Source of the DNA: Pelagerythrobacter marensis
Lineage (GTDB): Bacteria; Pseudomonadota; Alphaproteobacteria; Sphingomonadales; Sphingomonadaceae
DNA length: 64,000 bases
Direction: 5' to 3'
NCBI RefSeq assembly: GCF_036700095.1
Contig: NZ_CP144918.1
Span: forward strand, 1,799,001 to 1,863,000
The translations under genes and the position numbers were made by a program. Shown here in pieces: positions 11,777-34,860 of the stretch (within the stretch, counting starts at the first letter, position 1; every line of letters starts with the position of its first letter). A model generated the notes under the pieces. That model ran no database searches, was not told where the DNA came from, and saw only the letters and a program-made list of their open reading frames with translations.

Positions 11777-11792
11777 GGAAGGCCGCGGGCAG

Positions 11793-13313: not shown

Positions 13314-13323
13314 GGAGAGGACG

Positions 13324-14400: not shown

Positions 14401-14404
14401 CCCG

Positions 14405-16051
14405 ATGAAACCCAGTCATTTTCTCTCGGTCTGCGCGTGGGCGACGCTTGCCTGTGCCGGGCCGGCAGCGGCGCAGCAGACCGCGAACGAGGATGCGCGC
14501 GCGGAGCGTGGCGAGCGCCGGGCCAGCGTCGATCCCTATATCGAGGCGTCGCAGGTGCTGATGGCCGAGCTTTCGCCGGGCGACGATGTCGTCACCTACA
14601 CGCAAGTCGCCGCCGGCGTCGATGCCAGCCTGACCGGCCGCAACAACGGCGGCTCCGTCTCCGTGCGGTATGAACGCAATATCGCATATGGCGACGACAT
14701 GCGCGATTCCGACACCGTCAGCGGCGTCGCGCGCGGTTATGCGACCGTCGTGCCCCGGACGCTGACGATCGAGGGCGGCGCGCTCGCGGCGCGCACGCGG
14801 GTCGACGGCAATGGCGGGGCGACGCTCAACCCGCTGGTGGGCGACGACAGCGAGAGCCGGATCTATTCGGCCTATGCCGGGCCGAACCTCCATACCCGGG
14901 CGGGCGATGTGGAGGTGAATGCCAATTACCGCATCGGCTATACCCGCGTGGAAGCGCCCGATGCACTGGTCCTCGAACCCGGGGAAAATCCCGTCGACGT
15001 GTTCGACGAGAGCCTGGCGCAGAGCGCCGGGTTCCATCTCGGGACGAAACCGGGCGAACCCCTGCCGATCGGCCTGGGCGTGGGCGGCGGTTGGGTTCAG
15101 GAAGACGTGTCCAACCTGGACCAGCGCGTGCGCGACCGGTTCGTGCGCGGCGATGTGCAGGTTCCCGTGGGGCGCAGTCTCGCCGTGGTCGGGGGCGTCG
15201 GATACGAGGACGTCGAAGTGTCGAGCCGCGATGCCGTGCGCGATGCCGACGGCAATCCCGTGATCGGCGACGACGGCCGCTTCGTGACCGACAAGAGCGC
15301 ACCGCGCGAGATCGCCTACGACGTTTCCGGCCTGATCTGGGATGTCGGCGTGATGTGGCGGCCCAGCACGCGCACCGCGCTCGAGGCGCATGTCGGCCGG
15401 CGTTACGATTCCACCACCTATTACGGCACCTTCGCCTGGGCGCCGAACGCGCGCAGCAACGTGAACGTCGCGGTTTACGACACGGTGTCCGGCTTCGGCG
15501 GCCTGCTCAACAGCGCGCTGGCCGATCTGCCCACGGAATTCAGCGCCGCGCGCAACGCGCTGAGCGGGGATTTCACCGGATGCGTCGGCAGCGACGAAGG
15601 GGCGGACTGCCTCGCCGGAGTGCTCGGATCGGTCCGTTCGTCGGTCTTCCGCTCGCGCGGGATTGCGGCGAGTTACGGCGTGCGGCTGGGCCGCATCGAT
15701 ACCGGCGTCGGCGCGGGGTATCAGCGGCGCAAGTTCATCGCGGCCCCCGGCACGGTACTGGAAAGCGCCAACGGCGTGGTCGATGAAGCCTATTGGGTGA
15801 ATTATTACCTGAACGCCCGGCTGGGCCGCAATGCCGGCTTCGGGGCCAATGCCTATGCGAGCCGGATCGACAGCGGTTTCGCTGCCGACGGCGAGGTCCT
15901 CGTGCTCGGCGCGTCGGCCGCCTATCGCCGGTCGATCACCGATCGCCTGTCCGCGCGCGCAGCGGTCGCGATCGACCATCTCGATAGCGAGGCGACGGTC
16001 GAAGACTACACGTCGGCATCCGCGCTGCTCGGCCTGCGCTACGATTTCTGA
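14405..16051 (+). CDS. PEP-CTERM/XrtA system-associated outer-membrane beta-barrel protein
   Basis: A protein of 548 residues. The signal peptide ends near PAAAQQ, residues 25-27. The mature part alternates polar and hydrophobic residues with many aromatic ends, and the protein finishes SALLGLRYDF, a typical outer-membrane barrel C-terminus with terminal Phe. Its position between the tyrosine kinase and the ATPase matches the conserved XrtA locus order for the family of barrel proteins thought to aid EPS secretion. The ATG at 14405 is preferred over 14384, which would overlap the kinase gene. Confidence 0.88.
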   Translation: MKPSHFLSVCAWATLACAGPAAAQQTANEDARAERGERRASVDPYIEASQVLMAELSPGDDVVTYTQVAAGVDASLTGRNNGGSVSVRYERNIAYGDDMRDSDTVSGVARGYATVVPRTLTIEGGALAARTRVDGNGGATLNPLVGDDSESRIYSAYAGPNLHTRAGDVEVNANYRIGYTRVEAPDALVLEPGENPVDVFDESLAQSAGFHLGTKPGEPLPIGLGVGGGWVQEDVSNLDQRVRDRFVRGDVQVPVGRSLAVVGGVGYEDVEVSSRDAVRDADGNPVIGDDGRFVTDKSAPREIAYDVSGLIWDVGVMWRPSTRTALEAHVGRRYDSTTYYGTFAWAPNARSNVNVAVYDTVSGFGGLLNSALADLPTEFSAARNALSGDFTGCVGSDEGADCLAGVLGSVRSSVFRSRGIAASYGVRLGRIDTGVGAGYQRRKFIAAPGTVLESANGVVDEAYWVNYYLNARLGRNAGFGANAYASRIDSGFAADGEVLVLGASAAYRRSITDRLSARAAVAIDHLDSEATVEDYTSASALLGLRYDF

Positions 16052-16064
16052 GGGGTATGTGACG

Positions 16065-17237
16065 ATGTTCGAAGATTTCTACGGCCTGACCGGGCGCCCC
16101 TTTCAACTGACGCCCGACCCCGATTTCTATTTCGAAAGCACGACCCATCGCAAGGCGCTGTCCTACCTCGGCTATGGCATGGCGCAGGGCGAAGGCTTCA
16201 TCGTCATCACGGGCGAGGTCGGCGCGGGCAAGTCCACCCTCGTCGCGCACCTGATGCAGAAGATCGACCACAGCCGGATGACCGTGGGCCAGATCGTCAC
16301 CAGCAATCTCGACGGCGAAGAACTGGTCTATGTCGTGGCCCAGAGCTTCGGCCTCGATATCGAAGGGCACGACAAGGCCGGCGCGCTGGGCGCGATCGAG
16401 GCTTTCCTGCACGAAGAGGCGCGCAGCGGGCGCCGCTGTATGCTGGTGGTCGACGAATCGCAGAACCTCAGCGTCGAGGCGCTGGAAGAGCTGCGGATGC
16501 TGTCCAATTTCCAGCTCGGCTCGCATCCGCTGTTGCAGACGCTGCTGCTGGGCCAGCCCGAATTCCGGCAGGTCCTTGCCGAGCATCCGGCTCTGGAACA
16601 GCTGCGCCAGCGTGTGATCGCCACGCACCATCTCGAACCGATGGGCGAGGAGGAGATCGAGCCTTATATCGCGCATCGCCTCCGGTGCGTGGGATGGGAC
16701 GGCAATCCCGAATTCGACCGGCGCATCTTTGCCGAGCTGCACCAGGCGGCGGGGGGCATTCCGCGCAAGGTGAACCAGGTGGCGACGCGCCTCCTGCTGC
16801 TGGGCGCGGTGGAGCAGCGCACGCGGATCGACAGCGCCATGCTGCGCGCGGTGCTGGAGGAAATGCAAAGGGACAGCGCCTCTTCCGAAACCGAGCCGGG
16901 CGCGACGAAGCCCAGGCTCGGCCCGGTTCCGGCCTCGGGCCCGGTCAAGCACGCGGCGCGGGCGGGCGCGGCGGAGGAGCCGCAGGCACCGGCCGAGCCG
17001 TCCGTCGACCTGATGGCGATGCTCGCCGAACGCGACGCCCAGATCGCCGAGCTTCAGCAGGCGGTGATCGAACTGTCGCACGCGATCGAACGCGGCGACG
17101 GGGAGACTGCCGACCTGAACGAGCGGGTCGCGGCTTTCGGGCGGCGGCTGGACGAGCAGGAGCGGTCGGTGCGCGAAGTGCTCGCCATGCTGATCGAGTG
17201 GATCGAAACCGGACAGCCGCCCCGCGTTGCGGCCTGA
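16065..17237 (+). CDS. XrtA/PEP-CTERM system-associated ATPase (ExeA-like AAA)
   Basis: A 390-residue member of the GspA/ExeA-type AAA family of XrtA loci, starting MFEDFYGLTGRPF. Walker A GEVGAGKST is at 50-58 and Walker B MLVVDESQ at about 126-133. A C-terminal region of about 110 residues contains a predicted coiled coil (AQIAELQQAVIELSHAIERG). It is likely a cytoplasmic ATPase that energises or gates assembly of the EPS/sorting machinery. The gene lies 13 bases after the barrel gene. Confidence 0.92.
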   Translation: MFEDFYGLTGRPFQLTPDPDFYFESTTHRKALSYLGYGMAQGEGFIVITGEVGAGKSTLVAHLMQKIDHSRMTVGQIVTSNLDGEELVYVVAQSFGLDIEGHDKAGALGAIEAFLHEEARSGRRCMLVVDESQNLSVEALEELRMLSNFQLGSHPLLQTLLLGQPEFRQVLAEHPALEQLRQRVIATHHLEPMGEEEIEPYIAHRLRCVGWDGNPEFDRRIFAELHQAAGGIPRKVNQVATRLLLLGAVEQRTRIDSAMLRAVLEEMQRDSASSETEPGATKPRLGPVPASGPVKHAARAGAAEEPQAPAEPSVDLMAMLAERDAQIAELQQAVIELSHAIERGDGETADLNERVAAFGRRLDEQERSVREVLAMLIEWIETGQPPRVAA

Positions 17238-17247
17238 GGAGGCGCTT

Positions 17248-18120
17248 GTGGCCGAACGCCCGATCGTCAACGGCCTTTCGGTCGATGTCGAGGACTGGTT
17301 CCAGGTCGGCGCCTTCGAGAAGGTGATCGACCGCCAGGACTGGGACAGCCTCGCGCTGCGGGTGGAAGACAACGTCGCCCGCATTCTCGACCTGTTCGGG
17401 GAAGCGGGCGTGAAGGCGACGTTCTTCACACTCGGCTGGGTGGCGGAACGCAACGGCCCGCTGATGCGGCGGATCGTCGATGCCGGGCACGAACTGGCCA
17501 GTCACGGCTACGACCACGCGCGCGTGTTCACGCTCGACCGCCGCCGCTTTGCAAACGACATACGTCACACGCGCAAAATTCTGGAAGATGCCGGCGGCGT
17601 CGCAGTAACCGGCTACCGCGCGCCGAGCTTCTCGATCGATGCGCGCACCCCGTGGGCCTACGACGAACTGGTCGAGCAGGGTTACAGCTACTCCTCCAGC
17701 GTCGCGCCCGTGGCGCACGACCATTATGGATGGCGCGCGGCGCCGCGGTTCGCTTTCCGCCCGGTCGCGGATGCCGCGCTGCTCGAGATACCGGTGACCA
17801 CCGCGATCCTCGGCGGGCGCCGGGTCGCGGCGGGCGGCGGCGGGTTTTTCCGCGTGCTGCCCTATGGCTTTTCGCGTTGGGCCATTCGCCAGGTCAACCG
17901 GCGCGAGGGGCGCCCGGCGATATTCTATTTCCATCCGTGGGAAATCGATCCGGATCAGCCGCGAGTGCCCGGCGCCCCGGCCAAGTCGCGCCTGCGCCAC
18001 TATACCAACCTTCGCCGCATGGCCCCCAAGCTGCGCGAACTGGTGCACGAATTCGCCTGGGGCCGCATGGACGAGATCGCCCGCCGCGAGGGGCAGGGCG
18101 CGATCCCGCTGGCGGCATGA
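17248..18120 (+). CDS. XrtA system polysaccharide deacetylase
   Basis: A 290-residue NodB-homology deacetylase with the DUF3473 C-terminal region found in XrtA loci. Metal and catalytic motifs are SVDVEDWF (residues 11-18), ASHGYDH, and GYRAPSFS, with FYFHPWEID near the C-terminus. It removes acetyl groups from N-acetylated sugars of the exopolysaccharide. The GTG start at 17248 is chosen because GAGGAGG lies five bases upstream; the open frame reaches back to a TTG at 17227. The stop overlaps the next gene's ATG (ATGA). Confidence 0.93.
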   Translation: MAERPIVNGLSVDVEDWFQVGAFEKVIDRQDWDSLALRVEDNVARILDLFGEAGVKATFFTLGWVAERNGPLMRRIVDAGHELASHGYDHARVFTLDRRRFANDIRHTRKILEDAGGVAVTGYRAPSFSIDARTPWAYDELVEQGYSYSSSVAPVAHDHYGWRAAPRFAFRPVADAALLEIPVTTAILGGRRVAAGGGGFFRVLPYGFSRWAIRQVNRREGRPAIFYFHPWEIDPDQPRVPGAPAKSRLRHYTNLRRMAPKLRELVHEFAWGRMDEIARREGQGAIPLAA

Positions 18121-19175
18121 ACGCGCCTTTCGCCATGACGAGAACGGGGCTCGCACTGGCGGACCTGAACGATCCGCCGGAAGCGGCACGGATCGAAGCC
18201 TTCGTGGCGGATGCAGGCGGCACGCTCTTCCATCGCCCCGCCTGGTTGCGCATGGTGGAGCGCGGGACGGGGCAGCGTGCGCTGGGCATCGTGGCCCGAC
18301 GCCGCGGCACGATCGCGGGGTGGCTCCCGCTCACCCGGGTGCATTCGCCGATCTTCGGCCGCGCGCTGGTGTCGAGCGGGTTCGCGGTTGGTGGCGGCAT
18401 TCTCGCCCCCGACAGCGAGGCAGCCAACGGGCTGGCGCAGGCCGCCGAGGAACTGGCCTGTCGCCGCAGTTGTCCGACCGTCGAACTGCGCGGCGGAGCC
18501 ATGCCGGGCGGATGGGACACTCGCAGCGATACTCATGTCGGCTTCGTCACGGCTCTGGCGGATGACGACGAGGCGCAGCTGCTGGCCGTTCCGCGCAAGC
18601 AGCGGGCGGAAGTGCGCAAGAGCCTGGCCGGCGATCTTTCGGTGCGCGTCGGCCGCGGGGAAGGCGATCGTGCGGCGCACTACGCCGTCTATGCCGAGAG
18701 CGTGCGCAACCTCGGCACCCCGGTGTTTCCCCGCAGCCTGTTCGATGCCGCGCTGGACGAACTCGACGCCGATATCCTGACAGTGTTCCACCGCGACGCA
18801 CCCGTCGCAAGCGTGCTGTCCTTCTACCACAGCGGCACGGTCCTGCCCTACTGGGGCGGGGGCACATTCGCGGCACGGCGGCTGCGGGCCAACGAACGGA
18901 TGTATTTCGAACTGATGCTCCATGCCCGGCGGCGTGGCTGTATGCGGTTCGACTTCGGCCGTTCCAAGACCGGCAGCGGCCCGGCCGCTTACAAGAAGAA
19001 CTGGGGTTTCTCGCCCGAGCCGCTGATTTACGCGACCTGGAGCATGCCGGGCAGCTGGGGGCGGAACATCGACCCGACCGACGACAGCTATTCGGCGAAG
19101 ATTGCCCTGTGGAAGCGTCTGCCGCTGGAGCTGGCCAACCGCATCGGGCCGCCTATCGCGCGCGGACTTGGCTGA
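18117..19175 (+). CDS. FemAB family XrtA/PEP-CTERM system-associated protein
   Basis: A 352-residue FemAB/GNAT-fold protein. VPRKQRAEVRKSL is a typical motif, and RFDFGRSKTGSGPAAYKKNWGF near the C-terminus is a hallmark of this group. It probably transfers an aminoacyl or acyl group to a polysaccharide or lipid-linked sugar. It overlaps the deacetylase by four bases and the glycosyltransferase by one base, so all three are translated from one message. It is distantly similar in fold to the GNAT-like protein at 7180-8166. Confidence 0.9.
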   Translation: MNAPFAMTRTGLALADLNDPPEAARIEAFVADAGGTLFHRPAWLRMVERGTGQRALGIVARRRGTIAGWLPLTRVHSPIFGRALVSSGFAVGGGILAPDSEAANGLAQAAEELACRRSCPTVELRGGAMPGGWDTRSDTHVGFVTALADDDEAQLLAVPRKQRAEVRKSLAGDLSVRVGRGEGDRAAHYAVYAESVRNLGTPVFPRSLFDAALDELDADILTVFHRDAPVASVLSFYHSGTVLPYWGGGTFAARRLRANERMYFELMLHARRRGCMRFDFGRSKTGSGPAAYKKNWGFSPEPLIYATWSMPGSWGRNIDPTDDSYSAKIALWKRLPLELANRIGPPIARGLG

Positions 19176-20413
19176 TGGAGGGCGAAATCCTCTTCCTGGC
19201 GCATCGGGTGCCGTTCCCGCCCGATCGCGGCGACAAGATCCGCTCGCACCACCTGTTGCAGGCGCTGGCGAAGATCGCGCCGGTCCACGTCGGATGCCTC
19301 GGCGAAACGGCGAGCGATATGGCGCAGGCAGGCGAGCTGGGCAGGATGGCCGCCAGCCATTGCCTCGTTCGCCGCAAGCGCAATCTCGCCGCCGCGGGGG
19401 CGGAGGCGCTGTTGCGCGGGCGCCCGGTCAGCCTTGCCGCTTTCGACCATCCGCGTCTGCGCCGCTGGGTCGGCGAGACGCTGGCCGCACGGCCGATCGA
19501 TACCGTGTTCGTGTTTTCCGGCCAGATGGGTCAATACGTGCCCGAAGACTTTCGCGGGCGCGTCGTCATCGACCTGTGCGACGTCGATTCGGCCAAATTC
19601 GAGGCTTACGGTGCGCGAAAGGGCGGCTTGCGCGGACGGATCGACCGGCGGGAAGCGCGCTTGCTGGCGCGCGAGGAAGAGCGCCTGGCCCGGCGCTGCG
19701 ATGCCACCTTGCTGGTAAGCGAAGCGGAGGCAACCTTGTTTCGCAGCCGGCTGACGGACCCTGCCGCCGCCGATATTCGCACGGTGCGCAACGGGATCGA
19801 CACGGCAAGGTTCGATCCGGCGCGGATCGCGCCGCACCCGCAGCTGGTCGGCAGTCCGGGCCCGCATCTCGTGTTCACCGGGCAGATGGACTACGCACCC
19901 AATGTCGAGGCGGTGCGGCGCGCCGCCGAACGCATCCTGCCGGCGATCCGCCGGACGCATCCCGGTGCCGTGCTCCACATCGTGGGGCGCGCGCCGGTGG
20001 CGGGGGTGCGCGCTCTCGAACGGCATAGCGGGGTGCGGGTATGGGGCGAGGTCCCCGATGTCCGCCCCTTCCTGGCAGGCGCCGATCTCGTGCTGGCCCC
20101 ACTGGCGATTGCGCGCGGAATCCAGAACAAGGTGCTGGAGGCCATGGCGATGGCCCGGCCGGTGGTGCTTTCGCCGGAAGCAGCGACCGGGATCGAGGCG
20201 AGGGACGCAGAGCACTTCGCCGTCGGGGATGACGATCCGGCGCTGATCGAGCGGGTCCTGTCGTTGCTGGCCGATCCTTCGATGGCGCAGGAGATGGGGG
20301 CAGCGGCGCGGCGATATGCGGTCGAGAGGCAGGGCTGGGCCGCGATGCTGGCGCCCCTGGCCGACCTCGTCGGGGCCGCCCCGCAAGGGCGGAGGCAGCG
20401 GGATGCCGCCTGA
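19175..20413 (+). CDS. XrtA/PEP-CTERM system glycosyltransferase (GT4-like)
   Basis: A 412-residue GT-B glycosyltransferase of the XrtA-specific group. It starts EILFLAHRVPFPPDRGDKIRS. A central GQMDYAPNVEAVRR segment precedes the C-terminal nucleotide-sugar-binding domain, and VWGEVPDVRPFLAGADLVLAPL with GIQNKVLEAMAMARPVV forms the conserved donor-binding region. It adds a sugar during assembly of the EPS repeat unit on the cytoplasmic side of the inner membrane. The ATG overlaps the FemAB stop (TGATG), and the end overlaps the exosortase gene by 11 bases. Confidence 0.92.
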   Translation: MEGEILFLAHRVPFPPDRGDKIRSHHLLQALAKIAPVHVGCLGETASDMAQAGELGRMAASHCLVRRKRNLAAAGAEALLRGRPVSLAAFDHPRLRRWVGETLAARPIDTVFVFSGQMGQYVPEDFRGRVVIDLCDVDSAKFEAYGARKGGLRGRIDRREARLLAREEERLARRCDATLLVSEAEATLFRSRLTDPAAADIRTVRNGIDTARFDPARIAPHPQLVGSPGPHLVFTGQMDYAPNVEAVRRAAERILPAIRRTHPGAVLHIVGRAPVAGVRALERHSGVRVWGEVPDVRPFLAGADLVLAPLAIARGIQNKVLEAMAMARPVVLSPEAATGIEARDAEHFAVGDDDPALIERVLSLLADPSMAQEMGAAARRYAVERQGWAAMLAPLADLVGAAPQGRRQRDAA

Positions 20414-21962
20414 GGCCATCCTCTCGCCGCCGCGCAGTCGATTGACGGACCGGGTTGCCGATGGCTGGCGCCTGCCGCTTGCACGGCTGGGTCTGGCCTG
20501 GCTGACGCTGTTCCTGCTGACCGGCCGCGACTGGCTGACGATGGCCGACAAGTGGTGGAACGTTTCCACCTACAACCATGTCCTGTTCGTGCCGCCGATC
20601 GTCGGCTGGCTGGTGTGGAACCGGCGGCGCGAGCTGGCTCGGCTCGTGCCGCAGGCCTGGGGTCCGGGCCTGGTACTGCTGGCCGGAGCCTTGTTCCTGT
20701 GGCTGCTGGGCACGCTAGCCGGGGTCAACAGTGCGAGCCAGCTGGGCGCCGTGCTGGCGCTGCAGGCAGCCGTTCCGGCGCTTCTCGGCCCGCGGGTGAC
20801 CGCGGGGCTGGTGTTCCCGCTGGCCTATATGCTGTTCCTGGTGCCTTTCGGCGACGAACTCGTGCCCGCCTTGCAGATGGTGACCGCCGATATCGTGATC
20901 TGGCTGACGCGGATCAGCGGCATTCCGGCCCATATCGAAGGTGTCTTCATCGATACCCCTGTCGGATTGTTCGAAGTGGCGGAGGCGTGTTCGGGCGTTC
21001 AGTTTCTCGTCGCCATGCTGGCATTGGGCGTTCTGATCGCGCAGACCTGCTTCCGGAGCTGGGGCAGGCGTATCGCATTTCTCGCCTTTGCCCTCGCGCT
21101 GCCGATCCTTGCCAACGGCGTGCGCGCCTGGGGCACGATCTATATCGCCCAGTTCCAGGGGATCGCGTTCGCCGAAGGGTTCGATCACATCTTCTACGGG
21201 TGGATTTTCTTCGCGCTCGTCGTCGGCATTCTGCTTGCGCTGACCTGGCGCTGGTTCGACCGCGATCCCGAAGATCCGGGGATCGATGCGCAGACCCTGC
21301 TGAATTCCCGTGCACTCGGCCAGCTGAGCCGCGGTGCGGTCGGCGCGAACGCCGCGCTTGCCGGCGTTGTCGCGCTGGCGGCCGGTTTCGCGCTCTGGGC
21401 TGGATACGCGTCCCGCATCGAGGCGGACGTGCCCGCCAGAATCGCCTTGCCCGCCGTGCCGGGATGGCAGCAGGTCGATTACAACCCGCAAGTGGACTGG
21501 GCGCCGCGGGCAAGCGGTGCCGCCCACCGTCTGCTCGCACGCTATCGCAACGATGCGGGGGACGAGGTCGATGTGTTCTTCGCGCTCTATCCGGCGCAGG
21601 GCGATGCGCGCGATGCCTCCGCTTATGGCGAAGGCGCGCTGGTGCCCGATACGCCGTGGCGCTGGGTGGAGCCGGGCCGGCACTCTCCCGAAGCCGCGGG
21701 GGAGGTCCTGCTCGCCAACGGCACCGTGCCGCGCATCGCGGAGACGAGCTGGCGCACGGGAGACCTCACGACGGGCAGCGTGGTGCGGCTCAAGCTCGCG
21801 ACGATGCGCGACCGTTTGTTGCTGCGACGGCGCCCGACCGCCACGCTGATCCTTTCGGTCGAGGGCAGGAACGCCGAAGCGAGTGCGGAGGCGATCGACC
21901 GGTTCGTTGCCGCGATGGGTGGACGCGGCGCGTGGATGGACCGCGCGGCCGGCCTGCGATAG
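20403..21962 (+). CDS. xrtA: Exosortase A fused to an EpsI domain
   Basis: A 519-residue multi-pass membrane cysteine protease/transpeptidase that cuts PEP-CTERM sorting signals. About eight membrane helices fill residues 25-285. The catalytic triad is visible: Cys196 in EACSGVQF, Arg241 in NGVRAWG, and His262 in FDHIFYGW. After residue 310 a periplasmic EpsI-type domain follows (VPGWQQVDYNPQVDWAPR), a fusion usual for XrtA. It overlaps the upstream glycosyltransferase and is followed ten bases later by the amidotransferase. No substrate with a PEP-CTERM tail was seen in this window. Confidence 0.95.
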   Translation: MPPEAILSPPRSRLTDRVADGWRLPLARLGLAWLTLFLLTGRDWLTMADKWWNVSTYNHVLFVPPIVGWLVWNRRRELARLVPQAWGPGLVLLAGALFLWLLGTLAGVNSASQLGAVLALQAAVPALLGPRVTAGLVFPLAYMLFLVPFGDELVPALQMVTADIVIWLTRISGIPAHIEGVFIDTPVGLFEVAEACSGVQFLVAMLALGVLIAQTCFRSWGRRIAFLAFALALPILANGVRAWGTIYIAQFQGIAFAEGFDHIFYGWIFFALVVGILLALTWRWFDRDPEDPGIDAQTLLNSRALGQLSRGAVGANAALAGVVALAAGFALWAGYASRIEADVPARIALPAVPGWQQVDYNPQVDWAPRASGAAHRLLARYRNDAGDEVDVFFALYPAQGDARDASAYGEGALVPDTPWRWVEPGRHSPEAAGEVLLANGTVPRIAETSWRTGDLTTGSVVRLKLATMRDRLLLRRRPTATLILSVEGRNAEASAEAIDRFVAAMGGRGAWMDRAAGLR

Positions 21963-21972
21963 AGGCCGGCCC

Positions 21973-23871
21973 ATGTGCGGCATCGCCGGGATCTTTCATT
22001 GCGGCACTCCCAAGCCGGTCGATCCCGAGCGTGTCGCGCGCATGTCGGACGCGCTTGCCCATCGCGGGCCCGACGGTTCGGGGGTCTGGACCGGCCCCGG
22101 CGTCGGTCTCGGGCATCGCCGGCTCTCGATCATCGACATCGAAGGATCGCCCCAACCGATGCATTCGGCCGACGGGCGCGCGACGATCGTGTTCAACGGC
22201 GAAATCTACAATTTCCGCGAGCTTCGCCGCGAGCTGGAGAATCTGGGCGAACAGTTCCGCACCGATGGCGATACCGAGGTGATCCTGGCCGCCTGGTCGC
22301 GCTGGGGAATCGAGTGCCTGCCGCGGCTGCAGGGCATGTTCGCCTTTGCGCTCTACGACGCGCACCGGCGCGAACTCGTGCTTGCGCGCGATCGGCTGGG
22401 GGTGAAGCCGCTGTTCACCGCCCACCTGAGCGACGGCAGCCTGGCCTTCGCCTCCGAACTCAAGGGCTTGCTCGCCCACCCGCTCCTGCGTCGTCAGGTC
22501 GATCCGTTTGCGATCGACGACTATATGGCGTGGGGCTACGTGCCCGATCACCGCTCGATCCTGAAAGGGGTGAAGAAGCTCCCCGCCGGCCATTACCAGG
22601 TTCTGCGGCACGAGACGCCGCCGCCGCCGCCGGTGCAATGGTGGGATGTCGACTTCAGCCGGCGCCGGAGCGGCTCGACCGCGGACCTTTCGGCGGAACT
22701 GCTGCACCATATGCGCGAGGCCGTGCGTTCGCGCATGGTCGCCGATGTGCCGCTGGGTGCGTTTCTGTCGGGCGGCGTCGATTCGTCTTCGGTCGTGGCG
22801 CTGATGGCGGAAAGCGGCGGCGATCCGGTGAGCACCTGCTCGATCGGCTTCGACGTTGCGGAGCTGGACGAAACGCGGCACGCGGAAAAGGTCGCGCGCC
22901 TTTTCGCCACCGATCATCATGCTCGCTCGGTCGATCCCGACGATTTCGCAGCCGCAAACCGGATCGCCGGCATGTTCGACGAGCCTTTTGCCGACGCCTC
23001 GGCCCTTCCGACCTGGCGCGTCTGCCAGCTTGCGCGCGAGAAGGTGACGGTCGCGCTTTCGGGCGACGGTGCGGACGAGGCGTTCGCCGGCTATCGTCGC
23101 CAGGTTTTCCATGCGCGCGAGGAACAGGCCCGGGCGGTCATTCCGGCGGCGCTCCGCAGTTCCCTGTTCGGCGGCCTGGGCGCGATCTGGCCCAAAGCCG
23201 ACTGGGCGCCGCGCCCCTTCAGGGCGAAAGCGACATTGCTGTCTCTCGCCCGCGACGGCGCCGAAGGATATGCGCGCGCCGTGGGCGTCGTGCCCCCGGA
23301 AACGCGCGCGCGGCTCTATGCGGACCGGTTCGCGCGCGAGATCGACGGATACCGGGCAGAGGATGGCTTCACCCGCCTGATGCGCGATGCCCCGGCGCAA
23401 AGCGGGCTGGACCGGGCGCAATACGCCGATCTCAAGTTCTGGCTGCCCGGCGATATTCTGACCAAGGTCGACCGAACGAGCATGGACGTCGGCCTCGAAG
23501 CGCGCGAGCCGCTGCTGGATCATCGCCTGATCGAATTTGCCGCCCAATTGCCGCAGCGAGAGCGGATCCGCGGCCGTCAGGGCAAGTGGCTGCTCAAGCA
23601 CACCATGCGCCGCTACTTGCCCGACGACGTGCTGTTTCGCCCGAAGCAGGGCTTCGTCACCCCAATCGCGCAGTGGCTGCGCGGGCCGTTGGCCGGGGAG
23701 GCGCGCGCCATCGCGACCGGCGCACGCCTGGCGAGGACGGGCTGGTTCGATGCCGCGCACCTCGCACGAATTGCCGAATCGCACATTTCCGGCCGATCGG
23801 ACAATTCGCGCCTGCTGTGGCAGCTCCTGATGCTCGACCGCTCGCTGGATCGGCTGGGAATTACCGGTTGA
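21973..23871 (+). CDS. XrtA/PEP-CTERM system amidotransferase (asparagine synthase-like)
   Basis: A protein of 632 residues. The N-terminal class II glutamine amidotransferase domain begins MCGIAG with Cys2 as nucleophile and has HRGPDGSG. The C-terminal asparagine-synthase domain has the PP-loop SGGVDSSSV and the LSGDGADEAFAGYRR motif. The most likely job is amidation of a sugar carboxyl group such as a uronic acid in the EPS, by analogy with WbpS-like enzymes; true asparagine synthesis is less likely in this context. It is the last gene of the rightward XrtA operon. Confidence 0.92.
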   Translation: MCGIAGIFHCGTPKPVDPERVARMSDALAHRGPDGSGVWTGPGVGLGHRRLSIIDIEGSPQPMHSADGRATIVFNGEIYNFRELRRELENLGEQFRTDGDTEVILAAWSRWGIECLPRLQGMFAFALYDAHRRELVLARDRLGVKPLFTAHLSDGSLAFASELKGLLAHPLLRRQVDPFAIDDYMAWGYVPDHRSILKGVKKLPAGHYQVLRHETPPPPPVQWWDVDFSRRRSGSTADLSAELLHHMREAVRSRMVADVPLGAFLSGGVDSSSVVALMAESGGDPVSTCSIGFDVAELDETRHAEKVARLFATDHHARSVDPDDFAAANRIAGMFDEPFADASALPTWRVCQLAREKVTVALSGDGADEAFAGYRRQVFHAREEQARAVIPAALRSSLFGGLGAIWPKADWAPRPFRAKATLLSLARDGAEGYARAVGVVPPETRARLYADRFAREIDGYRAEDGFTRLMRDAPAQSGLDRAQYADLKFWLPGDILTKVDRTSMDVGLEAREPLLDHRLIEFAAQLPQRERIRGRQGKWLLKHTMRRYLPDDVLFRPKQGFVTPIAQWLRGPLAGEARAIATGARLARTGWFDAAHLARIAESHISGRSDNSRLLWQLLMLDRSLDRLGITG

Positions 23872-27415: not shown

Positions 27416-28198
27416 TCAGATCTGGCGCTCGACCAGCATCTTCTTGGTCTCGGCAATCGCCTTGGCCGGGTTGAGCCCCTTGGGGCAGACATTGGCGCAG
27501 TTCATGATCGTGTGGCAGCGATAGAGCCGAAACGGGTCCTCCAGCGCGTCGAGCCGCTCACCGGTCATTTCGTCGCGGCTGTCGGCCAGCCAGCGATAGG
27601 CCTGGAGCAGGATCGCCGGGCCGAGGAACTTGTCCGAATTCCACCAGTAGCTGGGGCACGCGGTCGAGCAGCAGGCGCACAGGATGCATTCGTAAAGTCC
27701 ATCCAGCTTCTCGCGCTGTTCGGGGCTCTGCAGCCGCTCCTTGCCGCTGGGCGTCGTGGAAACGGTCTGCAGCCACGGGCGGATCGATGCGTACTGGGCA
27801 TAGAAGTGCGAGAAATCGGGCACCAGGTCCTTCACCACGTCCATGTGGGGCAGGGGGGTGATGCGGATTTCTCCCTTCAGGTCCTCCATCGCGGTGGTGC
27901 AGGCGAGGCCGTTCTTGCCATTCATGTTCATCGAGCACGAACCGCAGATCCCCTCGCGGCACGAGCGGCGGAAGGTCAGGGTGGGATCGACCTCGTTCTT
28001 GATCTTGATCAGCGCGTCGAGGACCATGGGCCCGCAATCGTCCAGATCGATCTCGAACGTGTCGTAGCGCGGATTTTCGCCGCTGTCGGGATCGTAGCGG
28101 TAGATCCGGAACTTCTGCACTCGCGCGGCCCCTTCGGCCCGGTGGACGTTGCCCTTGCGCGAGATCTTCGAGTTCTTGGGGAGGGTGAAGGTCGCCAT
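27416..28198 (-). CDS. sdhB: Succinate dehydrogenase iron-sulfur subunit
   Basis: A protein of 260 residues carrying the three clusters of complex II. The [2Fe-2S] site is in [16 protein letters not shown] plus a later Cys, the [4Fe-4S] site in [12 protein letters not shown], and the [3Fe-4S] site in [14 protein letters not shown]. It passes electrons from SdhA to quinone at the inner membrane. ATG 28198 has AGGA eight bases upstream. The usual sdhC, sdhD and sdhA genes are absent from both sides: the gene before it, 70 bases away, is an ATP-grasp ligase. They must lie elsewhere in the genome. Confidence 0.96.
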
Positions 28199-28268: not shown

Positions 28269-29276
28269 TCATCGATCCATCAGCCCGTGACGAAGAAGGC
28301 CTTCGGCCAGGATGGTTTCGATCAGCTCCGACTGGTTCCACCCGGCCAGCGCCGCCGCGCGTCCGAAAACCTTCTGCGACCAGAGATTGCAGTTGAGATT
28401 GAGTTCGAGGAACGTGATCTCCCCCGTTTCCTCGTTCACGCGAAATTCGAACCGGCCATAGTCGAACGGGCGATATTCGTTCCAGGCCTTGCGCGTTAGC
28501 TCCGCGATTCGCGCCGCCATCTCCCGGTTCTCGAACGGGTCGAGCGAGTATTTCTGGCTCCGATCCACGAGGTCGCGCTTTTCCTGGTATGTGCGCAAGT
28601 GCGAGGGGTCGGCCTGGCGGAAGATCATCATCGGCAGGATCGCCGGTTCGCCGCGCACCGTGATGACCGGCACCTCGACATCGCTGCCCTCCAGGAACGG
28701 TTCGACCAGGGCGTCATGCCCCAGTGCGTGGACAGCCGCTACGGCCTGCTCCACGCTGGCCAGGTCGGTCGCGTCGTTGACGCCCCAACTGGCCGAAGAG
28801 GCATTGGGCTTGATGACGTAGCGGTCGGCCTGCGGCACCAATGCCGGATCGACCGGGGCGCCGCGGCGGAAAATCGCCCAGGGGGCGGTCGGCACGCCGG
28901 CGACTTGCGCCGCTCGCTTGGCGAGGTGCTTGTCGTCGGAAAGCCCGCGCAGGATCGGGCTCGCACCGAGATAGGGGATGCCCTTGCGCTCGCACAGAAG
29001 CGGGCAGAGCATTTCCGAATTGAAGAACCCCGCCCGGTTGAGCAGCGGAAAGACGAAATCGACGTCCGGGTTCTCGAACAGGATCTCGAACCGGTCGGCG
29101 AGCACGAGATTGAGGCCGAGCCCTTCGAGCACCTGCCGCATCTCACGATGATAGAGCGCGTGATTGCCGTCTTCCGGGTGAAGCTCGCCTTCCCACAGCG
29201 CGTTCTTCGCAATGAAGAGGATGCGTAATCGCTCCTTCACCGCAGGATCGATCGTCATGGGTCGGAGTTCGGTCAC
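28269..29276 (-). CDS. ATP-grasp ligase (D-Ala-D-Ala ligase-like), paralog 1
   Basis: A 335-residue ATP-grasp enzyme. [15 protein letters not shown] is the ATP-binding lysine/glycine-rich loop, [16 protein letters not shown] the central grasp strand, and [11 protein letters not shown] (E-x-N-x-N) the metal-binding signature of D-Ala-D-Ala ligase-type enzymes. It should join a carboxylate to an amine or hydroxyl through an acylphosphate. It is clearly paralogous to the gene at 30882-31898 along its whole length. GTG 29276 follows AGAAAGAGG and aligns with the paralog's start; ATG 29258 is an alternative. It is not Ddl itself: it lacks the usual Ddl context and the N-terminus differs. Confidence 0.85.
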
Positions 29277-29371
29277 GAGAGCGGCCTCTTTCTGATGCTG
29301 CCAGACTGTCGTATTGCAGCAATTGCGGTGGCGTGCGTCCCTAAGTCTGTTAAGGCTGGGCGCAAGCGAAA

Positions 29372-30865
29372 ATGCAAGCCGGGTCGACGATGCCAATATC
29401 CACCAGCAACCTGTCGCCCGACTTTGCCGCCGACGACCGGACGCACGATCTGATAGCCTTGCTGGCCGGGGGTGGCGACGAACGCCTCGTGCTCGACCCG
29501 GAAACCGGGCTCAACCGATATATGTCGGGGCCGTATCCGCGCGACGTTCTCGCCTATGCCTCGTCCACCGCCAACGATATTTCGCCCGCCGCCTTTCGCT
29601 ATCTGCTGGACCGGCCAGAGGTCGGTCCAGCCGGCTATGCCGGCGCGCTGGACGCGCTTCGCCGCCGTCTGCGCGCGGTTTTCGCGCTGGAGAAAGACGT
29701 CGGGATCGTTTTTGCTCCCTCGGGCACCGATCTCGAATACGTTGCGCTCGCGGCGACAATCGGCCGGGCGCCGGGCGGCGTGCACAACGTGCTGCTGGGC
29801 GCCGACGAAGTCGGGCGTGGCTGCATCCATTCGGCGGCGGGCAATTTCTTTGCCAGCAGGACGCCGCTCGATCGCACGGTCGAGGCAGGGGAGAGCGTGC
29901 GCGGGCTGGAAGCCGTTTCGCTGTCGGATATTCCTGTGCGATGCGGCGAAGGCCATGCCCGCAGCAGCCGCGAGATCGCGGCTGCGATCGACCGGGAAGT
30001 GGAATGGGCGCGTGCCGACGAGCGGCATGCGCTGGTGCATGTGGTTCACGGGTCGAAGACCGGTCTCATCCTGCCGCGTCTGGCAGAGCTGGACCGGCTT
30101 CGGGCGCGTTGGGGCGATGCCATGACGGTCGTGGTCGATGCCTGCCAGGTGCGCCTCGCGCCCGGGGATGTGGCAGCTTATCTCGATCGCGGCGCGATCG
30201 TGCTGATGACCGGTTCGAAGTTTATCGGCGGGGTTCCGTTCAGCGGTTTTGCCCTGGTGTCTGCGGCGCATATCCGGGCGGCCCCGCCCTTGCCGACCGG
30301 GTTCGATGCGCTGTTCCGCCGTGCCGAATGGCCGGAGAACTGGCCGGGTCGGCAGGCTTTGGCCGACGACGCCAATCCCGGCCTGCTGGCGCGGCTGGAC
30401 GGGGCGGTGTTCGAACTGGAACGCTTTCGGGCGCTTCCGGCAGCCGCAATCGCCGCTGTCGTCGATACGTTTCAGCGCGTCCTCGCGCAGGAACTGATAG
30501 TACCGCTGGGCTTGCGCGAGGTCGAAACGTCCGCCGAAGACGGCGCGAGTGTCGCGGCGGACAATGTCGATCTTCTCAAGACACTGGTCACGCTCGACGT
30601 TTCGATGCTGCCGTCGGCCCGGACTTTCGACCGGGCGGTTGCATTGCATGCCCGCCTGGCGCGCGCCGGCATCCGGCTCGGCCAACCGGTCAAGAGCGTC
30701 CGCCTGCCCGGTGGCGAGTGGGGCGGCACTTTGCGCGTGGGGCTGTCGATGCCGCAAATCGCTGCCCTTGCCGCCGTGGAGCCGCCGATCCGCGAGCGGT
30801 CGCTCGCGGAACCGTTCGGCACGGTCGCGGCGGCATTGCGCCAGCAGGACGTTGTCGACGCCTGA
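29372..30865 (+). CDS. PLP-dependent enzyme, fold type I (aminotransferase class V-like)
   Basis: A 497-residue protein of the aspartate-aminotransferase fold. APSGTDLEY (115-123) is the cofactor-phosphate loop, VVVDACQ has Asp256 for the pyridine nitrogen, and TGSKFIGG has Lys283 as the PLP lysine. This pattern is closest to class V and SepCysS-like or decarboxylase-like enzymes; the exact reaction is not recognisable. An ATG at 29390 could also be the start. It is divergent from ATP-grasp paralog 1 (95-base gap) and convergent with paralog 2 (16-base gap). That layout suggests the three proteins act on a common metabolite. Confidence 0.82.
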   Translation: MQAGSTMPISTSNLSPDFAADDRTHDLIALLAGGGDERLVLDPETGLNRYMSGPYPRDVLAYASSTANDISPAAFRYLLDRPEVGPAGYAGALDALRRRLRAVFALEKDVGIVFAPSGTDLEYVALAATIGRAPGGVHNVLLGADEVGRGCIHSAAGNFFASRTPLDRTVEAGESVRGLEAVSLSDIPVRCGEGHARSSREIAAAIDREVEWARADERHALVHVVHGSKTGLILPRLAELDRLRARWGDAMTVVVDACQVRLAPGDVAAYLDRGAIVLMTGSKFIGGVPFSGFALVSAAHIRAAPPLPTGFDALFRRAEWPENWPGRQALADDANPGLLARLDGAVFELERFRALPAAAIAAVVDTFQRVLAQELIVPLGLREVETSAEDGASVAADNVDLLKTLVTLDVSMLPSARTFDRAVALHARLARAGIRLGQPVKSVRLPGGEWGGTLRVGLSMPQIAALAAVEPPIRERSLAEPFGTVAAALRQQDVVDA

Positions 30866-30881
30866 GCCGGATGGGTAGCCG

Positions 30882-31898
30882 TCAGCCTGCGATCAGCGCA
30901 TTCCTACGCCAGGATTCGGCCAGCAGCGTCTCGATCAGATCGGCATGGCTGAAGCCGGCCTGCGCCGCAGCTTTGGCCATGACCTTCTCCGACCACAGAT
31001 TGCAGTTGAGATTGATCTCGATGAAGTTGATGTCGCCGGTGGCGAGGTCCAGGCGAAACTCGATCCGGCCATAGTCGAACGGGACGAATTCCTGGGCGAC
31101 TTTCCTCGCCATCGCCTCGATCCGGGGTGCGAACTCGGCATGATCGAAACGCTTGAGCGCGGCCTTCTCGGTGTTCTGCACCAGGTCGCGCTTTTCGTAA
31201 TAAGTCCACAGCTTCTGCGTGTCCTCGCGCTCGTACCACAGCATGGGCAGGGCGACAGGCTGATCGCGAATGGTGATGAAGGCGCACTGGATGTCGTAGC
31301 CGTCCAGATAAGGCTCCACGATGGCGTCGTGGCCCTGACCGTGAATGTCGGCAATGGCATTGGCCACCCCGTTCCAGTCGAATGCGTCGGAGATGCCCCA
31401 GCTGGCGGACGAGGCATTGGGCTTGATGACCCAGCGGCCGCCGGGGGCGGGGGGCAGGTCTTTCTCCAGAACCGGGGCGCCCCGGCGATAGCAGAACCAC
31501 GGCGCGGTCGGCACCCCGGCATGGACTGCGGCCAGTTTGGACACCGATTTGTCGTCGCCCATGCCGCGCAGGAACGGCATCGCGCCGAGATAGGGGATGC
31601 GGTGCATGTTGCACAGCAGGGGGATCAGCATCTCGCTGTTCACGAAGCCGCCGCGATTGAGCAGAGGGAAGACGAAATCGGCTTCGGGCCGATCGAACAG
31701 CACCTTGTAGTTGTTCGCGAACTGGAGGTTCAGTCCCAGGCTTTCCAGAGTCGTGCGAACTTCGTGGTGGTAGATCGCGTGATTGCCATCCTCCGGATGC
31801 ATCCCGCCGCCCCACAGGACGTGCTTGGCCATGAACAGCAGGCGGACGCGCTCTTTGGCTTCTTGGGGAATGCGAAGGGGTTCGGCGGAATCGGGCAT
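30882..31898 (-). CDS. ATP-grasp ligase (D-Ala-D-Ala ligase-like), paralog 2
   Basis: A 338-residue ATP-grasp protein. It has the same key segments as the gene at 28269-29276: [47 protein letters not shown] and [14 protein letters not shown] (the metal-binding E-x-N-x-N). By eye the two proteins are identical at over half of positions in the N-terminal 130 residues. ATG 31898 is chosen as the first good start before KERVRLLF. It faces RNase E's 3' end across a strong hairpin region. The substrate is unknown; the duplication suggests two successive or alternative amide-forming steps. Confidence 0.85.
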   Translation of the reverse strand: MPDSAEPLRIPQEAKERVRLLFMAKHVLWGGGMHPEDGNHAIYHHEVRTTLESLGLNLQFANNYKVLFDRPEADFVFPLLNRGGFVNSEMLIPLLCNMHRIPYLGAMPFLRGMGDDKSVSKLAAVHAGVPTAPWFCYRRGAPVLEKDLPPAPGGRWVIKPNASSASWGISDAFDWNGVANAIADIHGQGHDAIVEPYLDGYDIQCAFITIRDQPVALPMLWYEREDTQKLWTYYEKRDLVQNTEKAALKRFDHAEFAPRIEAMARKVAQEFVPFDYGRIEFRLDLATGDINFIEINLNCNLWSEKVMAKAAAQAGFSHADLIETLLAESWRRNALIAG

Positions 31899-32052: not shown

Positions 32053-34860
32053 TTATTGCCCGAAAGTGCGCTGCCACCAGCCGCGGCGGGGAGAAGCGGA
32101 CCCTTCGTCCTCGCGCGAGTTGTCCGCCGCTTCCGCGTCGTTCGCAGGGGCGGATGCTTCCGCAGCCGCTTCGCTCGACACGTCGCCCGAGGATTGCGTC
32201 GGCGCGGCCGCTTCGAGCGCGGGTTCCTCCTCCACCTTCTTCTTGCGCCGCGTACGCTTGGGCTTCTCGGCCGGTTGCTCGGCCTCCGCCGGTCCGGCCT
32301 CTGCCGGCGCGGTTTCCGCAGGCGTGGCCGCCTCGGGTTCGTCGGCCTTCTTGCGGCGCGTGCGCTTCTTCGGCTTGGGAGCCTCCTCGGCATCGGCGTC
32401 GGCAGGTGGCGCTTCCGCGGCTTCGCTCACCGGCTCTTCGGGCGGCTTGGCCTTGGCTCTCGAGGCGCGCGGCTTGCGGCCGGCGGCTTCTGCCGGCGCC
32501 TCGGCCGTTTTCGCACGGCGCGTACGCCGTTTCGGCTTCGGTGCGTCTTCGACCGTTTCCTCGCCGGCTTCGCTCGGAGCTTCTTCTGCGCCGTCGGGGG
32601 CGACCGCCATATCCTCGCTCACCCGCTTCGAGACCGTCTCGCCCGTATCGGAGCCGGCATCGCCGTCGCTCTCGTTCTCGCCCTCTTCGCGATCGCGACC
32701 CCCGCGCCGACGGCGGCCCCCACGGCGCCGACGCTTCTTGGGCTTGCCCTCGTCTTCGCTGGAGGGGTGGCCATCGTCGTCGCGTTCGTCGTCCGCATCG
32801 CCGCTGTCGTCACTGCCGTTGTCGGCGGCCTCATCGCCATTGCGGCCTTTGTTGCGCCCGCGGCCGCCGCGCCGACGCCGACGGCGCTTCCTGTTGCCAT
32901 CGTCGTCGTCATCGTCGGCTCGTTCGTCCGCTCCAGCGGGAACCTCGTCCTCTTCCGGCGCCTCGTCGTCGACGATCGGTTCGAACTTCGGCGCTTCGGT
33001 CGGCTTCGGGCCGGAGCTGGAGACGCTCATCTTGGCACCTTCCTGCTCGCCCTCGGGCACGACTTCGACGCTGACGCCATAGCGGCGCTCGATCTCGACC
33101 AGGTCGTCGCGCTTGGAATTGAGCAGGTAAACCGCCGCCTCGGTGCTGGCCGCGAGCGTGATCACCGTTCCCTTGCCCTTGGCGGCCTCGTCCTCGATCA
33201 GGCGCAGCGCGGACAAGCCCGCGCTCGAGGCTGTGCGGACAAGGCCGGTGCCATCGCAGTGCGGGCATTCGCGCGTCGTCGCTTCCAGCACGCCGGTACG
33301 CAGGCGCTGACGGCTCATTTCCATCAGGCCGAAGCCGGAGATGCGGCCGACCTGGATACGGGCGCGGTCGTTTTTCAGCGCGTCCTTCAACGCGCGCTCC
33401 ACCTTACGGTTGTTGGAGTTGTACTCCATGTCGATGAAGTCGATCACGACCAGGCCGGCCATGTCGCGCAGACGCAGCTGGCGGGCGATTTCCTTCGCCG
33501 CTTCGAGATTGGTCGCGAGCGCGGTCTGCTCGATCCCGTGTTCCTTGGTCGAGCGGCCCGAGTTGATGTCGATCGACACCAGCGCCTCGGTCGGGTTGAT
33601 GACCAGGTAACCGCCGCTCTTGAGCTGCACGACCGGGTCGTACATCGCGCGCAGCTGGTCCTCCGCGCCGTAGCGCTGGAACAGCGGCACCGGGTCGGAA
33701 TAGGCCTTCACCCGACGCGCGTGGCTGGGCATCAGCAGTTTCATGAATTCCTTGGCCGAGCGGTAACCCGCTTCGCCTTCGACCACGACTTCCTCGATCT
33801 CGCGGTTGTAGATGTCGCGGATCGCGCGCTTGATCAGGTCGCTGTCCGAATGGATCAGTGTCGGCGCGCTGGAGGACAGGGTCTTTTCGCGGATCTCGTC
33901 CCAGAGGCGGGCGAGATAGTCGAAATCGCGCTTGATTTCGGTCTTGGTGCGCTGGAGGCCGGCAGTGCGGACGATCAGGCCCATCGTGCGCGGCAGCTTG
34001 AGATCGCCGACGATCTGCTTGAGCCGCTTGCGATCGCTGGCGCTGGAAATCTTGCGCGAAATGCCGCCGCCGTGGCTGCTGTTGGGCATCAGCACGGTGT
34101 AGCGGCCGGCCAGGCTGAGATAAGTCGTCAGCGCCGCGCCCTTGTTGCCGCGCTCTTCCTTGACCACCTGCACCAGCAGCACCTGACGGCGCTGAATGAC
34201 GTCCTGGATCTTGTAGCGACGGCGCAGCGCCTGGCGGCGGGCGCGGACTTCGTCCACTTCCCTGGCGCGTGCCCGGCCCTTGCCCGGGCGGCGGCCACGG
34301 CCGCGGCGCCCACGGCGCGAATCCGATCCGCCCCGGCTCTCGTCGCTGTCGTCGTCGCTGTCGTCGTCATCGTCGTCGCCATCGCCGTTGGCGAGTTGGC
34401 CTTCTTCGAACGTTGCGACTTTGTCTTTCTCGGAGGTGTCGATTTCCTCGACCCCCTCTTCGGCGAACTCCTCGACCAGCGCGCCGCCGGTTTCGTCGTC
34501 GGCATCGTATTCGTCACCCGGGAGATCGCCGCGCTCCTCGTCCTCGGCGCGCAGGCGCGCCTCTTCTTCGGCGGCTTCGGCCTCTTCGGCCAGGAGCTTT
34601 TCGCGGTCTTCCCTCGGGATCTGGTAGTAATCGGGATGAATCTCGCTGAAGGCGAGGAAGCCGTGCCGGTTGCCGCCGAAATCGACGAAAGCGGCCTGGA
34701 GGCTGGGTTCGACCCGGGTTACCTTGGCGAGATAGATATTGCCTTTGATCTGCCGATGTTCGGCGGATTCGAAATCGAATTCCTCAATCCGGTTGCCCTT
34801 GAGTACCGCCACCCGCGTTTCTTCCGGGTGGCGCGCATCGATCAGCATGCGCGTTGCCAT
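32053..34860 (-). CDS. rne: Ribonuclease E/G
   Basis: A 935-residue endoribonuclease that drives mRNA decay and rRNA/tRNA processing. The S1 RNA-binding part (about 35-220) is split by an acidic then basic insertion of about 120 residues (Asp/Glu runs, then RRGRRGRGRR). The catalytic core has SIDINSG and VIDFIDME, which carry the Mg-binding aspartates, and ECPHCDGTG with the Zn-link CPxC. The C-terminal 320 residues are low-complexity blocks (KPKRRTRRAK, KKRTRRKK and similar) that form a disordered degradosome scaffold. ATG 34860 has CGGAGAA seven bases upstream. rne is often autoregulated through its 5' leader. Confidence 0.95.
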   Translation of the reverse strand: MATRMLIDARHPEETRVAVLKGNRIEEFDFESAEHRQIKGNIYLAKVTRVEPSLQAAFVDFGGNRHGFLAFSEIHPDYYQIPREDREKLLAEEAEAAEEEARLRAEDEERGDLPGDEYDADDETGGALVEEFAEEGVEEIDTSEKDKVATFEEGQLANGDGDDDDDDSDDDSDESRGGSDSRRGRRGRGRRPGKGRARAREVDEVRARRQALRRRYKIQDVIQRRQVLLVQVVKEERGNKGAALTTYLSLAGRYTVLMPNSSHGGGISRKISSASDRKRLKQIVGDLKLPRTMGLIVRTAGLQRTKTEIKRDFDYLARLWDEIREKTLSSSAPTLIHSDSDLIKRAIRDIYNREIEEVVVEGEAGYRSAKEFMKLLMPSHARRVKAYSDPVPLFQRYGAEDQLRAMYDPVVQLKSGGYLVINPTEALVSIDINSGRSTKEHGIEQTALATNLEAAKEIARQLRLRDMAGLVVIDFIDMEYNSNNRKVERALKDALKNDRARIQVGRISGFGLMEMSRQRLRTGVLEATTRECPHCDGTGLVRTASSAGLSALRLIEDEAAKGKGTVITLAASTEAAVYLLNSKRDDLVEIERRYGVSVEVVPEGEQEGAKMSVSSSGPKPTEAPKFEPIVDDEAPEEDEVPAGADERADDDDDDGNRKRRRRRRGGRGRNKGRNGDEAADNGSDDSGDADDERDDDGHPSSEDEGKPKKRRRRGGRRRRGGRDREEGENESDGDAGSDTGETVSKRVSEDMAVAPDGAEEAPSEAGEETVEDAPKPKRRTRRAKTAEAPAEAAGRKPRASRAKAKPPEEPVSEAAEAPPADADAEEAPKPKKRTRRKKADEPEAATPAETAPAEAGPAEAEQPAEKPKRTRRKKKVEEEPALEAAAPTQSSGDVSSEAAAEASAPANDAEAADNSREDEGSASPRRGWWQRTFGQ

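Follow-up and report, generated by a model that had tools for sequence, protein, structure and literature searches.

Adjacent, divergently transcribed genes for an ATP-grasp ligase and a pyridoxal 5'-phosphate (PLP) enzyme form a conserved pair in sphingomonads. We tentatively propose, with somewhat less than even confidence, that the two proteins carry out two steps of one pathway which, together with a MobA-like nucleotidyltransferase and a flippase-type protein, gives an envelope glycoconjugate. The pair was studied in Pelagerythrobacter marensis (Sphingomonadaceae), within a window of 64,000 nucleotides (contig NZ_CP144918.1, positions 1,799,001 to 1,863,000; assembly GCF_036700095.1) from the 2.9 Mb chromosome that bears the locus. 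Positions below are those of the window unless a locus (L) or genome (G) is named. The ligase of the pair, AG1, resembles D-alanine-D-alanine ligase (Ddl), and a second such ligase, AG2, lies on the far side of the PLP gene. Computation shows the folds, the conserved catalytic residues, the AG1-PLP pairing and the co-occurrence of the AG family with the nucleotidyltransferase.

Results

The pairing was followed in 249 genomes of the family, where AG-family genes were counted at E values up to 1e-60, and in a second collection, overlapping the first, of the best 80 of at least 586 stretches that encode PLP relatives; these 80 come from sphingomonads or unplaced proteobacterial metagenome-assembled genomes. 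The PLP gene is present in 38 of the 249 family genomes and AG-family genes in 87. An AG gene accompanies PLP in 37 of the 38. Of these, 36 have a divergent AG1-like gene, identical at 61% or more, less than 1 kb from PLP; G557 has its AG gene 1.2 kb from PLP. The second collection has AG1 beside PLP in 76 of 80 loci, and three of the misses (L105, L149 and L159) end near PLP at contig ends. In 35 of 37 family loci, the window counted among the 37, 64-291 bp separate the aligned AG1 and PLP regions. The two outlying gaps, 664 and 1210 bp, fit L094 and G557, respectively; L094 (G512, ~9337-10802) has its PLP gene split over two frames, with AG1 and AG2 both beside it. On a tree of 85 AG proteins the divergent, PLP-linked state requires 4 changes, versus 27.9 in shuffles.

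AG2 does not share this constancy. Of the 38 PLP genomes, 6 have an AG gene that converges on PLP; it is of AG2 type in 4, and in G575 and G621 another second AG, 46% identical, occupies the same convergent place. AG2 lies beside PLP in 3 of the 80 loci of the second collection. The conserved unit is therefore the adjacent, divergent AG1-PLP pair, and the trio is ruled out as such a unit. Nor is the trio an operon, since its strands alternate, AG1 and PLP being divergent and PLP and AG2 convergent. A preliminary description of this DNA had presented the three genes as one possible module; linkage holds for AG1 and PLP and fails for the trio, given the 6 of 38 genomes above and the 50 of 87 AG genomes that lack PLP.

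The PLP gene (29390-30865, plus strand) encodes 491 residues and faces AG1 across an intergenic region of ~113 bp (29277-29389). Its product has no sequence match in Pfam, NCBIfam or the PDB at E values up to 1. The relative in L064 matches no Pfam or NCBIfam family at E values up to 0.01, five distant relatives gave no match to the PLP-enzyme models of these databases, and a profile of 16 relatives reached a best E of 0.045 against the PDB. The AlphaFold model (mean predicted local distance difference test score, pLDDT, 91.5) nevertheless matches fold-type-I PLP enzymes. The protein shares with them the overall fold, the Schiff-base lysine and the PLP-binding aspartate, although it is 11-19% identical to them and the template modeling (TM) score to the query is ~0.5. 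Both residues, Lys283 (in TGSKF) and Asp256, numbered from position 29372, are invariant in 35 of 35 alignment rows. The 50 fold matches listed include 2-aminoethylphosphonate transaminase, SHMT, cysteine desulfurase, aminotransferases and a carbon-sulfoxide lyase at similar scores; no single subfamily is prominent among them, and there is no racemase. We take the protein to represent a distinct, unnamed fold-type-I family. Its closely related counterpart from Pelagerythrobacter marinus (L141) is 68% identical. Ratios of nonsynonymous to synonymous substitution between the window and G006 are 0.21 for PLP, 0.068 for AG1, 0.038 for AG2 and 0.018 for SdhB; the PLP gene is thus under purifying selection, yet it is the fastest-evolving of the four.

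AG1 (28269-29276, minus strand; 335 residues, GTG start) and AG2 (30882-31898, minus strand; 338 residues) were, like the PLP gene, called with a purpose-written codon-usage script beside a list of open frames. They are identical at 183 of 330 positions (55%), nearly full length, and carry the E-x-N-x-N metal motif as ELNLN and EINLN. Both match PF07478 above its cut-off. The AG1 model (mean pLDDT 84.4) has Ddl as its nearest fold, with a TM score to the target of ~0.8, and E331 and N333 of the metal site are invariant in a 35-row alignment, all as in an ATP-grasp enzyme. The preliminary description is thus borne out in seeing two such ligases around a fold-type-I PLP enzyme with its lysine and aspartate in place; it had noted that more than half of the residues agree in the N-terminal parts of the ligases, and the identity stands while the restriction to these parts does not.

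Beyond fold and domain, AG1 shares with Ddl a serine-rich loop and an arginine two residues before what we take to be the first acidic ligand. It is, however, ~20% identical to Ddl, and the scores of AG1 and AG2 against TIGR01205 (74.9 and 68.1 bits) fall far below the NCBIfam cut-off of 245.65; the ligases do not belong to any named family. The Lys-Tyr pair of Ddl, the catalytic K215-Y216 of E. coli DdlB, is replaced by an invariant Lys273-Arg274 (375-residue numbering) in the alignments to 3r23 and 8evv/8evx, while the register is off by one in those to 1iov and 4c5a (E. coli), so that two of three kinds of template alignment agree. The first metal aspartate of Ddl is a glutamate in AG, and after the metal motif AG reads N-C-N-L-W-S where Ddl has a P-G-M type. 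Because the ATP and metal residues are kept while the Lys-Arg pair and the segment after the motif are changed, AG1 likely follows the chemistry of Ddl, an acyl phosphate and then an amide, on different substrates.

AG2 falls in a fully supported group of 21 rows, on a longer branch inside a larger clade of the midpoint-rooted tree of 85 AG proteins, and its relatives occur mostly in genomes lacking PLP. It thus appears to be a diverged AG1 paralog that stands beside PLP in few genomes. L250 (G642:C1, ~1795.8-1797.9 kb) carries AG1-like and AG2 genes in tandem without PLP; the same genome has nucleotidyltransferase genes in tandem (C1, ~1682.2-1683.8 kb), as if duplicated in parallel with the ligase.

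The MobA-like nucleotidyltransferase (PF12804) is often found downstream of AG. It is present in 85 of 87 AG genomes versus 7 of 162 others at a cut-off of E 1e-80, chosen after a gap had been seen between 3.9e-82 and 2.2e-68; the Fisher p of 2e-55 treats related genomes as independent and is no true probability. It is lacking from two AG genomes, G461 and G653 (73% complete), and present in 36 of the 38 PLP genomes. With the cut-off relaxed to 1e-60, 11 of the 162 AG-less genomes score a match; at 1e-25 matches spread to 194 of all 249, owing to a widespread related paralog. The gene lies at most 500 bp downstream on the same strand for 12 of 43 PLP-linked AG genes in family genomes and 41 of 81 in the second collection, and for 25 of 41 PLP-less AG genes. 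The window genome carries it at C1:1,062,645-1,063,427, adjoining a flippase-type gene at 1,061,380-1,062,621. Among 59 relatives, close flippases of this type (PF01943 family), at a cut-off of 1e-120 likewise chosen afterwards, occur in 10 of the 17 with AG and in 2 of the other 42. The genus includes a species in which the nucleotidyltransferase-flippase pair adjoins a gene for an Nmad3-domain protein (L312:8137-8871; PF18754, E 2.7e-71).

Genes for glycosyltransferase family 4 (GT4) proteins, flippases and sugar-transfer-associated ATP-grasp proteins (PF14397) lie near some AG genes. The PF14397 protein, which neighbors AG in some sphingomonads lacking PLP, is separate from AG1 and AG2, and AG1 has no match to the Pfam model at E values up to 1. 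Proteins of the AG-neighbour type occur in 21 of 249 family genomes, in 0 of 38 PLP genomes and 19 of the 50 AG genomes without PLP (Fisher p 7e-6, which again counts related genomes as independent and is no true probability). Within the family, PLP and the PF14397 protein look like alternative partners of AG. Strict alternatives they are not, as the two adjoin in L204 outside the family; the pattern is local.

Relatives of the PLP enzyme beyond the family keep other company. We opened 22 of the 23 outside-family genomes with a PLP match (G826 was left out). A gene like group-II PLP decarboxylases and one for a TPR/RimK-like protein, mostly adjacent, are found in 17 of the 22 stretches, 5 of them from one genus. 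The decarboxylase of L096 belongs to PF00282 and is fused there with the TPR/RimK-like protein, and in L217 the two genes lie ~2 kb from PLP. Of the two, L207 and L208 show just the decarboxylase and L098 has neither; the L213 stretch begins at the edge of its contig. In L204 (9257-12085) a PF14397 ATP-grasp gene lies directly downstream of PLP (E 3.9e-30). Profile comparisons did not support close kinship of the TPR/RimK-like protein with AG1 (hhalign probability 1.2%, E 0.042, in the ATP-grasp region) or with PF14397 proteins (2.7%, E 0.017), both from shallow profiles. Flagellar genes with confirmed query identities (flagellin, FlbT, FlgK, FliD and FliS) lie in 8 of the 22 stretches (L097, L199-L202, L216, L217 and L098). 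These loci are possibly linked to flagellin modification; with 5 of the 8 from one genus, we do not adopt this as a general role of the family.

Among rhizobial plasmid loci, 8 of 33 records were opened. PLP follows nonribosomal peptide synthetase (NRPS)-type genes in four (L057, L288, L289 and L290), that of L057 having Pfam condensation, AMP-binding and thioesterase domains. A small ParB-type gene comes next after PLP in three of these (L057:11722-12123, L288:10658-11059 and L289:10722-11123). The L057 protein bears a weak likeness to a model of archaeal L-serine kinase, at 35 bits for a cut-off of 380, perhaps hinting at O-phosphoserine chemistry. L291 has PLP beside a D-alanine aminotransferase, and the stretches of L056, L058 and L292 hold no annotated feature; in L056 and L058, PLP had no visible NRPS neighbor.

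The window locus sits between an sdhB-type iron-sulfur protein gene (27416-28198, minus strand; Fer2_3 and Fer4 domains checked) and a ribonuclease E/G family gene, rne (32053-34860, minus strand; domain checked). Neighbor clustering of 37 PLP loci finds genes of the sdhB-rne region and the nucleotidyltransferase to be the commonest besides AG and PLP. In L300, L301 and L303, from genomes without an AG match, the same interval holds a related, lower-scoring nucleotidyltransferase and a flippase, along with genes of glycosyltransferase type or unassigned ones, which supports an envelope-glycan setting and shows the interval to be an exchange site. Pairs with no sdhB in the stretch number 8 of 37 in the family, 7 of them flanked by 6 kb or more on either side, and 39 of 76 in the second collection, 28 with such flanks. 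Protein distances of PLP and AG1 correlate beyond those of sdhB (partial r 0.67; 0 of 2000 permutations as high) in the 29 of 37 loci used, the 8 without detected sdhB being dropped.

Elsewhere in the window, an exosortase gene lies at 20442-21962 (PF09721, E 1.1e-65), and the region around it (~11132-23871) resembles a cluster for exopolysaccharide that includes a gene of asparagine-synthase type, its other labels coming from reading the sequence. A phage or defense origin of the trio was considered and found no favor: none of the three proteins matches PHROGs or PADLOC at E values up to 0.01, and one pattern scan of viral contigs found no PLP relatives.

Discussion

The proposed pathway would begin with the PLP enzyme making or converting an amino acid or amine. 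AG1 would phosphorylate a carboxylate at the expense of ATP and couple the resulting acyl phosphate to an amine, forming an amide. The nucleotidyltransferase would link a sugar or polyol to a nucleotide and so activate it, and the flippase would export the lipid-linked product, leaving an amino-acid-decorated envelope glycan or glycolipid. AG2, as a paralog of AG1, would probably act on a changed substrate. We infer the substrates, the sequence of reactions and the destination at the surface from the company these genes keep: PLP recurs beside several amide-forming machineries and AG nearly always occurs with the nucleotidyltransferase, which together point to an amino-acid moiety on an activated sugar or polyol at the cell surface.

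The preliminary description had suggested that the trio builds a small peptide-like or amino-acid-derived metabolite. Recast for the AG1-PLP pair, with the PLP enzyme supplying an unusual amino acid that the ligase joins into a free product, this is a serious contender that we nonetheless find rather unlikely. The rhizobial loci speak for it, with NRPS-type genes directly before PLP in half of those opened, the ParB-type protein next in three of these four and its weak serine-kinase likeness in L057. So does the fungal E-64 cluster, the nearest analogue met with in the literature searched, whose genes for an ATP-grasp enzyme, an adenylating ligase and a PLP decarboxylase serve to make peptide-like inhibitors (PMC12568646). 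There, as here, amide formation by an ATP-grasp enzyme is clustered with a PLP enzyme and proceeds without NRPS; the fungal ATP-grasp, however, is of another type, the host is a fungus, the product is a free inhibitor, and the decarboxylase, from another PLP family, was non-essential in the test host (PMC12568646). A free dipeptide, however, has no obvious need of the nucleotidyltransferase that accompanies AG in sphingomonads, sometimes with GT4 and flippase-type genes, and no constant exporter was seen in the clustering of 37 PLP loci. Of the earlier suggestion the linkage of ligase and PLP enzyme stands, the trio as its unit does not, and the nucleotidyltransferase and flippase-type partners, both encoded outside the window, lead us to favor a surface glycoconjugate over a free peptide-like metabolite.

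Several observations weigh against the glycoconjugate pathway. The envelope role is read from gene partners, and a free metabolite would suit the NRPS surroundings in rhizobia just as well. Related genomes enter every co-occurrence test, and the nucleotidyltransferase cut-off was set with the data in view. That gene is not adjacent to AG1 in the window, and the association with the flippase is not strict. The pairing itself has exceptions: G634 has PLP without AG, L151 has no AG within 8 kb of PLP, and ten of the 50 AG genomes without PLP hold AG1-like genes at least 61% identical. Outside the family, the TPR/RimK-like assignment is weak (RimK-type structure profile E 3.9e-5), and some members match Pfam models for TPR and ATP-grasp with E values no better than 0.0008 and 0.0017.

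The likeness of AG1 to Ddl in fold and in ATP and metal motifs would also suit a role in the cell wall, in which AG1 and AG2 are variant ligases for D-amino acids or dipeptides and the PLP enzyme serves as a racemase or aminotransferase of amino acids. We consider this improbable: both ligases score at less than a third of the Ddl subfamily cut-off, Lys-Arg replaces the Ddl Lys-Tyr in two of the three kinds of template alignment, the listed fold matches of the PLP model contain aminotransferases and no racemase, and 162 of the 249 family genomes lack AG genes. More improbable still is that AG1 and PLP owe their adjacency solely to a hot spot in the sdhB-rne interval at which cell-surface gene cassettes are exchanged, as the contents of the interval in L300, L301 and L303 might suggest, since the pair is kept in 7 family and 28 second-collection loci that show no sdhB within at least 6 kb on both sides and its two proteins co-vary beyond sdhB.

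What had been a vague trio becomes, with the glycoconjugate pathway as our preferred reading, a defined unit, in which a PLP family absent from the catalogs has a ligase as its near-obligate partner in sphingomonads and the ligase in turn has a near-obligate nucleotidyltransferase. The open-access papers searched hold no apparent description of the AG1-PLP pair. That the PLP family recurs beside several kinds of amide-forming enzyme suggests one shared reaction. A bolder reading, doubtful in full, is that this undescribed family feeds several amide-forming machineries, namely Ddl-like ATP-grasp ligases in sphingomonads, the TPR/RimK-like ATP-grasp with its decarboxylase in other Pseudomonadota, at some loci amid flagellar genes, PF14397 in one genome and NRPS in rhizobia, and that the sphingomonad product enters a previously unknown aminoacylated surface glycoconjugate. 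The locus may thereby expose an envelope molecule of sphingomonads for which the literature searched offered no paper.

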